A DNA stretch of 50,848 nucleotides from Synergistaceae bacterium (GTDB lineage Bacteria > Synergistota > Synergistia > Synergistales > Synergistaceae): positions 1 to 50,848 of the forward strand of contig JAUNJZ010000018.1 of assembly GCA_030533085.1 (NCBI GenBank). The letters run 5' to 3'. Of this stretch, positions 22,600 through 44,350 are shown one piece after another (positions within the stretch are counted from its first letter, which is position 1; each line of letters opens with the position of its first letter). Below the pieces are notes generated by a model. The model ran no database searches and had not been told where the DNA came from. It was given only the letters and a program-made list of their open reading frames with translations. A program made the position numbers and the translations under genes.

Positions 22600-24396
22600 T
22601 TACGCCTCGTCTTCGTCCAGGCCGCTGAAGAATATCCGGTTCTTTCCGCTGTTCTTCGCCTTGTAGAGAGCTTTGTCGGCGAACTCCATCATCTCCTCCG
22701 CAGTGAGAATTCCGCCCTTCGTAAAGACTACGCCGCAGCTGCATGTCAGAGAGAATTCATCCTGTTTGACGCTCTGGCTCAGAAGCTCCTGCATCTGTTC
22801 AAGGCGCTTGCGGACGATGTCGCGGCTGTCGCACTGCATGAAAGCCATAAACTCATCGCCGCCGAAGCGGCCGAGCAGGTCATCCGGCGCCAGAGCTCGC
22901 CCCATCTTTTCCGCGACGGCGCGCAGCGCCTCGTCTCCGGTCGAATGTCCGTAGTTGTCGTTTATATTCTTGAAATCGTCTATATCTATCATGATAAAGG
23001 CGCACGAAGCCTTCGGCGAAGCTACCAGACGCTCTCGGACGGCGCTGAAAAAGGCTTCCCTGTTCATAAGCTTCGTCAGCCTGTCCAGAGAGGCCAGACG
23101 GAAGGCCTCCTCGCGCTTCTCTACCACGTCCGTGATATCTTCCAGACGGGCGAAGAGCCGCAGAAGCCTGCCCTCTTCGTCCTTCACCGGGTAGGCGACC
23201 AGCCTGTACCATCTCCAATCATCCGACAGCAGCCGCCCGCGGAACTCGAAATGCTCCCCGCCGCGCAGGGACATCTTTCCTCGCAGGAAGCGGCGGCTTT
23301 CTTCCAGATACTCCGGCGCGATTACCTTCTCGTCCTGTCTTCCAGCAAGATATTTGTCCTGCGCTACGCGCTGCGTCACCCCTTCCGCGTTCTTGAAGGT
23401 ATAGTTTATCCTGTCCGCCAGAGGGTCATACTCTATTATCGGCGAAGTCTCCGTCTCCTCCAGAACACGCGCCCGCTCCGTCGCTATATAGAGCTTGCGG
23501 TAGCTTGCGCGCTTATGCGTATAGAGCAGTATGAAGAATATCAAAAATACAATGAGCGCCGATACAAATATATCGCTAAGATTTTCAAATATAAAATCAT
23601 AAAGGGAGAAATTGGAATAAAGATTAAGCCAGCGGTCGGATAGAGCGGCGAGGCGGCCGCTTTCAGATAGCCTCACAAGCGCGCCGTTCACATCGGCGAT
23701 AAGCGCCTCCCGCCCCGCCGCCGCGGCGACGCAGTAGATGCTGTTATAAAACACAGGGCTTACCACTCCCAAGCCTCTGAGCTTCAAAGAGCGGATCAAC
23801 TGCCAGCCGGTCGAATAAGGGGCGATGACATAATCGCATTTTCCCGTCGCGAGCATTCTGAAACATTCCGTATATGTGGCGCAGTTCAGCGCGGAAAGGC
23901 CGTACAGAGCCAGAAAAAGGTCGTTCACGCTGTCGCCGGATATTGTCGAAAAGCGTTTTTTGCCAAGTCCGGCAATGCTGAAAGTATCCCATTCTTTTCC
24001 GAAGGCGACGTAGGTCGCGCTTACAGTCGGCATGGAAAGGCAGAGCGAAGCTCTGCGCTCCGGCGTATTAGTGACACCCATCAGCAGGTCGTACTCCCCG
24101 CTTTGCAGCCCGGCGAAGGCTGTGCCCCACTCGACAAAACGGAGGTCGATGTTGACCTTCATCTCCTCCCCCAGCGCGTATATCAGCGCAGCGTCGTGAC
24201 CGGCCATCACTCCGTTTTTATCTACGAATGAGAAGGGCGGATAATCCTTATCCGCCGCGACGACGATGGTCTCCGCGTATTTTCCCTGAGCCGGAGGATT
24301 CCATTCCTCTTCCGGGTTGATCATGTCCCACGCTGAAACGACGATGATCAAAGCCAGAATGACACAGACGGATACGACAAAATTTCGTTTTTTCAA
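22600..24396 (-). CDS. diguanylate cyclase with periplasmic SBP_bac_3 sensor, PAS and GGDEF domains
   Basis: A 598-residue inner-membrane protein. TM1 is at residues about 6-25; a periplasmic solute-binding domain (family 3, as in amino acid receptors) covers about 40-265 (VVAADKDYPPFSFVDKNGVM, AGLQSGEYDLLMGVTNTPER); TM2 at about 275-297; a PAS domain at about 315-430; and a GGDEF domain at about 435-590 with RFGGDEFMAF, an intact catalytic signature for cyclic-di-GMP synthesis. The product-inhibition I-site (RxxD five residues ahead) reads APDD, so this feedback is probably missing. The gene is preceded on its own strand by a c-di-GMP-I riboswitch with a terminator, which would replace protein-level feedback by RNA-level control. 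It likely senses a periplasmic amino acid or related solute. Confidence 0.93.
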   Translation of the reverse strand: MKKRNFVVSVCVILALIIVVSAWDMINPEEEWNPPAQGKYAETIVVAADKDYPPFSFVDKNGVMAGHDAALIYALGEEMKVNIDLRFVEWGTAFAGLQSGEYDLLMGVTNTPERRASLCLSMPTVSATYVAFGKEWDTFSIAGLGKKRFSTISGDSVNDLFLALYGLSALNCATYTECFRMLATGKCDYVIAPYSTGWQLIRSLKLRGLGVVSPVFYNSIYCVAAAAGREALIADVNGALVRLSESGRLAALSDRWLNLYSNFSLYDFIFENLSDIFVSALIVFLIFFILLYTHKRASYRKLYIATERARVLEETETSPIIEYDPLADRINYTFKNAEGVTQRVAQDKYLAGRQDEKVIAPEYLEESRRFLRGKMSLRGGEHFEFRGRLLSDDWRWYRLVAYPVKDEEGRLLRLFARLEDITDVVEKREEAFRLASLDRLTKLMNREAFFSAVRERLVASPKASCAFIMIDIDDFKNINDNYGHSTGDEALRAVAEKMGRALAPDDLLGRFGGDEFMAFMQCDSRDIVRKRLEQMQELLSQSVKQDEFSLTCSCGVVFTKGGILTAEEMMEFADKALYKAKNSGKNRIFFSGLDEDEA

Positions 24397-24607
24397 TTGG
24401 CCCCTCCATCCAGTTGGCCCGCCGCCGAAGACGACTCTGCTTCACATCGCGCAGGCAAAAGTATAATAAAAAATAAATTCCGCGCCGCGCAGAGAGCCGC
24501 TGTCTTTGACCTAAAAGATGACAGCTCAAAGTTATGGCGATTCTATGACAATCCGCCGATTCCGGCAGCCTTTCCGCTCCGGGGCGGCGCTGTCGGATAC
24601 CGTCTGT

Positions 24608-24646
24608 AAAAAAACAAAAGCTCCCGCTCTCCGTAAAGGAAGAGCA
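24608..24646 (-). terminator. terminator hairpin downstream of the c-di-GMP riboswitch
   Basis: Minus strand: GCTCTTCC-TTTAC-GGAGAGC stem (24626-24645, one bulged T), then GGGAGC, TTTTG and a run of seven T (24608-24614). It lies between the riboswitch and the diguanylate cyclase start codon, the position expected for riboswitch-controlled termination. A second GAGC copy next to it allows an alternative pairing. Confidence 0.65.
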
Positions 24647-24735
24647 AAGTTCTATTGTCTCTCAGCTGTTTGATTTTTTTAGTGTTTTCTGATGAATCTG
24701 CCCCCATTTCTTTTCAAAGACGGGACAGTCGGCAG

Positions 24736-24825
24736 GATAGCAGGCAACCGGCTGTCATAACTTTCGTCTTAGACCCATGGCTTTCCGTCCCGCGCTTTCG
24801 CGCGGTTTGGCTTTATCTTTCTATC
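24736..24825 (-). ncRNA. cyclic-di-GMP-I (GEMM) riboswitch
   Basis: On the minus strand the GEMM-I core is present in order: GCCAAACC, a GCGCGAAAGCGC hairpin with GAAA tetraloop (P2), GGGACGGAAAGCC, GGGTCTAAG, an ATGACAGCCGG tetraloop-receptor block (P3) and GGTTGCC. Outer pairing GATAG/CTATC (24821-24825 with 24736-24740) can close P1. The G of AAGCC and the A after ACGG fit the ligand-contacting positions; two bases beside them differ from the common form but in a compensating way (C-G where G-C is usual). The aptamer lies about 340 bases before the diguanylate cyclase gene and precedes a terminator. Confidence 0.87.
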
Positions 24826-24839
24826 AGTTTTTCAAGTAC

Positions 24840-25048
24840 GGCAAATACTACAAGACGCAAATGACGCAAACAGTATTAAGTATTTTACACATTTGCCCCC
24901 CCCTGTAAATATTCATAAACTATATTTTGTTACATATAGATAACTTAATACAAAAAGTCCAAATATTACAATTTTTTATTTAGGGATAGCCAATGAGCTG
25001 CGGGACGTATTGGGAGAGCCGCCGGCAAAGTTCAGAAAGCGACGCGGC
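24840..25048. other. AT-rich intergenic stretch with an 8-C tract
   Basis: This stretch must carry the minus-strand promoter for the riboswitch transcript, but no clean consensus was found. It contains eight C in a row (24896-24903), then an AT-rich segment up to about 24985. No ORF with a convincing start is present. Confidence 0.4.
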
Positions 25049-25235: not shown

Positions 25236-25275
25236 GTAAAGAGAGCGGAAGGCTTTGCTTTCACGCTCTCTTTAC
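25236..25275. repeat. 12-bp perfect inverted repeat, 16-base loop
   Basis: GTAAAGAGAGCG (25236-25247) and CGCTCTCTTTAC (25264-25275) are exact complements. It lies between the 87-bp element and the gene at 25378. It could be a terminator-like or leader hairpin; there is no T-run directly after it. Confidence 0.55.
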
Positions 25276-25335
25276 CTTTACGGAGAGCGCGGCGCTTCCG
25301 ATTCCGCGGAAAAAACTCTATTGATAAGCGAAAAA

Positions 25336-44339: not shown

Positions 44340-44350
44340 CCCCCCCCCCC
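44340..44350. repeat. 11-C homopolymer tract upstream of the polysaccharide promoter
   Basis: Eleven C in a row, ending 17 bp before the -35 box at 44368. Homopolymer tracts of this length are prone to slippage and are used in phase variation of surface polysaccharides in other bacteria. Confidence 0.7.

Follow-up and report, generated by a model that had tools for sequence, protein, structure and literature searches.

The closest described relatives of the leader reported here are c-di-GMP riboswitches whose terminators behave in rather different ways. In the OFF switch Cd1 of Clostridioides difficile the bound aptamer and the terminator coexist, and in the ON switch pilM of Geobacter the two are mutually exclusive (Landgraf et al., PMC9262584). 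Bc1 of Bacillus thuringiensis, a class-I element, carries two terminators on a long expression platform; it binds c-di-GMP but leaves the genes downstream of it unchanged (Liu et al., PMC11218506).

Here we describe a leader from a Synergistaceae bacterium, found within a stretch of 50,848 nucleotides (contig JAUNJZ010000018.1 of assembly GCA_030533085.1; the whole of this stretch is called ‘the window’), in which the elements run along the minus strand in the order promoter, aptamer, terminator-like hairpin and gene. The aptamer (24825-24736, minus strand) carries P1, P2 and P3, as placed by Rfam matches and by an alignment of 40 aptamers; its P1 pairing, GATAG (24825-24821) with CTATC (24740-24736), is read directly in the sequence, and P2 is capped by a GAAA tetraloop. 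Searched against the whole 2.63-Mb draft genome, the c-di-GMP-I (GEMM-I) family RF01051 matches over its whole length (24740-24821, contig C24) with 74.7 bits and an E-value of 7.9e-15, exceeding the family’s gathering score of 35 bits. An earlier note on this DNA had placed a GEMM-I aptamer and then a terminator on the minus strand, ahead of an SBP_bac_3-PAS-GGDEF gene, and had proposed such a covariance-model search as a check; the Rfam and Pfam matches, together with a terminator-like hairpin at 24648-24608, bear this out. The extent given there (24608-24825) does contain the aptamer, but is really made up of the aptamer itself, the terminator and some 90 nt of spacer between them.

The best sigma-70-type promoter predicted in the leader, TTTACA-16-TAAAAT (24882-24909, minus strand; 10 of 12 consensus positions), precedes the aptamer, with a predicted transcription start at about 24875. 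Immediately 3' of P1 a hairpin is predicted, H1 (24698-24735, minus strand), with no U tract behind it; its 5' strand also has predicted short complements within the aptamer (GUCCCG to CGGGAC), and from the modelled fold we regard it as a candidate ‘switching’ strand. An unstructured stretch then leads to the terminator-like hairpin T1 (24608-24648, minus strand), with its stem at 24648-24623 and a U-rich tail, TTTTGTTTTTTT, running to 24608. T1 lies about 90 nt from P1, and a further 211 nt of leader separates it from the start codon; a second, weaker terminator-like hairpin in this interval (24479-24493, minus strand) is absent from whole-leader folds, and a ribosome-binding site, GGAGGGG (24401-24407, minus strand), can be read in the sequence just ahead of the gene.

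The gene itself (22600-24396, minus strand) opens with a TTG at 24396 and encodes a protein of 598 aa, in which SBP_bac_3 (44-258), PAS_4 (359-425) and GGDEF (435-587) domains score above the Pfam cut-offs. Two hydrophobic, transmembrane segments (about 4-26 and about 272-293) bracket the SBP_bac_3 domain, an arrangement that implies periplasmic sensing, such that the cyclase should be a membrane-anchored sensor of a periplasmic ligand, perhaps one of amino-acid type. Both neighbouring genes are apparently on the opposite strand, so the cyclase is probably alone on its transcript. No orthologue was found in 185 genomes of the phylum, and a search of genome contigs returned mainly matches at the level of the GGDEF domain, with no more than 42% identity.

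Aptamer-led genes in the phylum

RF01051 has 80 matches, spread over 23 of the 185 genomes. Inspected by eye, the first open frames behind nearly all of them appear to encode mostly secreted or repeat-rich surface proteins, serpins and chemoreceptor-like proteins, among others, with the serpin identity borne out by Pfam. Besides the window’s cyclase, two GGDEF genes are led by an aptamer, both encoding MASE3-GGDEF proteins and found in the genomes G120 and G121. There the 3' strand of P1 (CCGAAGG or GCCGAA) matches the 5' strand of the terminator (CCTTCGG or TTCGGC), in matches of 6 and 7 bases, and the terminators are compact, with seven T’s behind them. Judged from these pairings, both leaders have a clear OFF layout, which would mean negative feedback in those genomes. 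Both proteins also keep the RxxD tetrad of the I-site (RKSD and RSSD); the pairing of aptamer and cyclase thus recurs in the phylum, and does not depend on loss of the I-site.

Within the family, c-di-GMP-I aptamers also stand before serpin genes in three genomes (loci L118, L123 and L127). At L118, which belongs to the window’s own genome (G000:C75:66187-66273), the terminator overlaps the 3' strand of the aptamer, giving an ON layout. A degenerate c-di-GMP-I aptamer of 31 bits, with most of P3 gone, precedes a second serpin-like gene (L121, G000:C50:53456-53561) and is probably a decaying copy.

Coupling of aptamer and terminator

We propose a model, to which we give a roughly even chance, in which a class-I aptamer in the long leader of a monocistronic, periplasm-sensing cyclase gene translates high c-di-GMP into a stop at T1 and less cyclase. 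High c-di-GMP would keep the aptamer closed, the closed aptamer would cause more transcripts to end at T1, and more stops at T1 would yield less cyclase, amounting to negative feedback at the level of the RNA. The folding models suggest that the ligand-bound aptamer and T1 can coexist, as in the OFF-switch layout of Cd1. The mechanism put forward in the earlier note seems plausible. Negative feedback through an OFF switch is the guess that we favour, by analogy; the layout of the aptamer-led cyclases in G120 and G121 makes it the better guess for the window, but both signs may coexist among relatives, so that the window’s sign is not simply to be borrowed from its neighbours.

The alternative that survives best, and which we consider somewhat unlikely, is that the aptamer binds c-di-GMP without being coupled to expression of the cyclase, T1 acting as a constitutive attenuator, as Bc1 would provide precedent for (PMC11218506). 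In equilibrium folding T1 forms with a predicted probability of 0.88-0.97 when the aptamer is left free and 0.96-0.97 when it is enforced, at every length tested, and exposure of the ribosome-binding site stays at 0.51 in either state, all of which suits an uncoupled aptamer. So does the want of a partner for P1, whose 3' strand has no antiterminator complement of at least 5 nt within the next 260 nt. The proposed switch also has against it that the strands of T1 show no match to P1, that the best duplexes between aptamer and T1 strands are no better than shuffled ones, and that T1 lies 90 nt past P1, as against U tails that usually start 30-80 nt after the aptamer elsewhere in the phylum. However, folding of this kind predicts equilibrium and is blind to kinetic switching, by which an aptamer could act on T1 all the same, and regulation is the most sensible reason for a terminator to stand in a leader that has no gene before it to terminate.

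The proposed negative feedback has further to be weighed against an ON switch, in which cyclase expression would rise with c-di-GMP to give positive feedback, possibly of a bistable kind. The serpin-linked aptamer on contig C75 of the same genome, where the terminator begins in the aptamer’s 3' strand, lends this reading its precedent; yet none of the window’s terminators draws on an aptamer strand, and the other aptamer-led cyclases look OFF-like, so that we hold an ON switch here to be quite unlikely. It is distinctly improbable, in turn, that a promoter lying past T1 and ahead of the gene drives most transcription of the cyclase, with the aptamer on a short separate RNA. The 211 nt of leader past T1 would leave room for such a promoter, and a TATACT-like hexamer is present at about 24465, but no promoter match of at least 9 of 12 positions was found between T1 and the gene, the best there scoring 8/12 against 10/12 ahead of the aptamer.

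Ligand class, swapped pair and promoter spacer

All three of G20, A47 and C92, the ordinary c-di-GMP set (numbering after the Vc2 structure), are present in the aptamer, and G20 and A47 are invariant across all 40 aligned aptamers of the phylum. A cGAMP-type GEMM-Ib identity, which is marked by A at position 20, is rejected on the G found there. The sole RNA family returned by cmscan of the window, standing at the top of its clan, is RF03167 (c-di-GMP-I-GGC; 24820-24739, minus strand), with 64.9 bits against a gathering score of 59 and an E-value of 3.7e-13; rescaled to the same search by our own calculation, the E-value for RF01051 becomes about 6.5e-13, nearly equal to it. Despite this first rank, we dropped as highly improbable a variant GGC class with another ligand, since G stands in the printed consensus of RF03167 at the position matching A47, where the aptamer has A, the bit score is higher with RF01051 (74.7 against 64.9), and G20 and A47 recur in 40 of 40 aptamers. 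With the GGC label a near tie by E-value and A47 as the diagnostic base, the assignment falls to the ordinary c-di-GMP class: by its sequence this is a genuine, canonical class-I aptamer, predicted to bind c-di-GMP.

Both A47 and the 21-46 pair are contacts of the ligand (PMC7288161). Among the 40 aligned aptamers this pair is G-C in 35, C-G in five and broken in none, the five C21-G46 carriers being the window’s aptamer and four others, with both sides swapped every time. The compensated swap beside the ligand site that the earlier note had picked out is, on this alignment, true covariation and supports the fold. Since all five carriers belong to a single family, in which they are spread over three genomes, the swap is best regarded as a clade marker, and a new ligand is unlikely.

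Two swapped-pair aptamers of the genome G135 (L124 and L130, one of them truncated) have poly-G promoters directly upstream, TTGACT-T-G10-TGATG-TAAAAT with a spacer of 16 and TTGACA-C-G9-TGATG-TAAAAT with a spacer of 15, and the window’s promoter spacer likewise opens with a run of eight G’s (24903-24896, minus strand). A search of 183 genomes with a pattern for such promoters (TTGACN-Gn-TATAAT) gave 6 matches, against 0 with a reversed control; the window’s promoter misses it in its strict form because its -35 element is TTTACA. Several of the phylum’s genomes have promoters with such spacers (also at L253-L256), two of which stand directly before c-di-GMP-I aptamers; these promoters are candidates for phase variation. 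In other bacteria, slippage is known to occur at G runs like these. We think it unlikely that the cyclase too is phase-variable, through slippage of the G8 run that shifts the spacing of -35 and -10; if it were, RNA feedback would sit atop heritable on/off switching of the cyclase, and a population would split into c-di-GMP states. A lone G run means little here, as many of those in the genome are part of a dispersed repeat, whose core is CTTATTACAGCTTAT-G9-12-CGTACCTTTGTTCAGCGAATTGTCATAGC and which lies at many, mostly intergenic, sites (L173, L174, L178, L181, L185, L186, L189, L192, L193 and L195). Within the window, an 11-G run followed by TATATATAAT lies at 44340-44350 (minus strand).

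An inverted repeat of 20 nt (24625-24644 and 25270-25289; 18/20, 90%), its arms 625 bp apart, surrounds the promoter and aptamer. No other repeat of such quality occurs in the window, where shuffles give 0-1 and 16/18 repeats are common background. Inversion of the leader DNA was considered and set aside, the repeat being compatible with chance and the contig having no gene of the phage-integrase family.

The I-site and comparison with known systems

The GGDEF domain of the cyclase scores 130.5 bits against Pfam, with the GGDEF motif and catalytic residues intact. Taking an I-site to be RxxD five residues ahead of GGDEF, the cyclase has A-P-D-D in its place, and the absence of RxxD noted earlier is thereby confirmed. 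The further suggestion, that feedback had been moved from protein to RNA, fails as a rule: RxxD is present in four of the nine GGDEF-motif domains of the genome and absent from the other five, the cyclase’s included, such that its absence is ordinary here, and the two other aptamer-led cyclases keep it. The genome as a whole has 14 GGDEF and 8 EAL matches, which amounts to a full c-di-GMP system. Every cyclase in it with a readable GHxxGD motif keeps the Asp (GHSTGD in the window’s), so that nothing points to a Hypr enzyme of the cGAMP type.

What we describe is a known class of riboswitch before a kind of gene where it is expected, a feedback arrangement that is sound but ordinary. A working switch would form a compact one-gene loop, in which the product of an enzyme is sensed by the enzyme’s own mRNA, joined to a periplasmic sensor of amino-acid type. 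It would bring into c-di-GMP riboswitch biology a phylum on which no such study turned up in the literature searched; and since the I-site is kept in other cyclases led by such an aptamer, the window’s cyclase allows RNA-level and protein-level feedback to be tested cleanly against each other.

Set beside the MASE3-GGDEF leaders of G120 and G121, the window is alike in having a c-di-GMP-I aptamer directly before the gene of a membrane-sensor GGDEF protein; those two have MASE3 as the sensor domain, RxxD and a compact, P1-matched OFF terminator, whereas the window has SBP_bac_3 and neither of the latter features. It shares with the c-di-GMP-I class at large (RF01051) P1, P2 and P3, the GAAA tetraloop, G20, A47 and C92, and a place in the 5' leader of a c-di-GMP-related gene, but differs in C21-G46 for G21-C46 and in an unusually long expression platform without visible coupling. 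The aptamer fold is the same as in Cd1 and pilM. Like Cd1, the window keeps its aptamer and terminator free of overlap, but Cd1 has an antiterminator, and no antiterminator pairing of an aptamer strand with a terminator strand was found in the window. With Bc1 the window has in common a class-I aptamer, a long platform and two terminator-like hairpins; what sets it apart is the gene downstream, which in the window is a cyclase.
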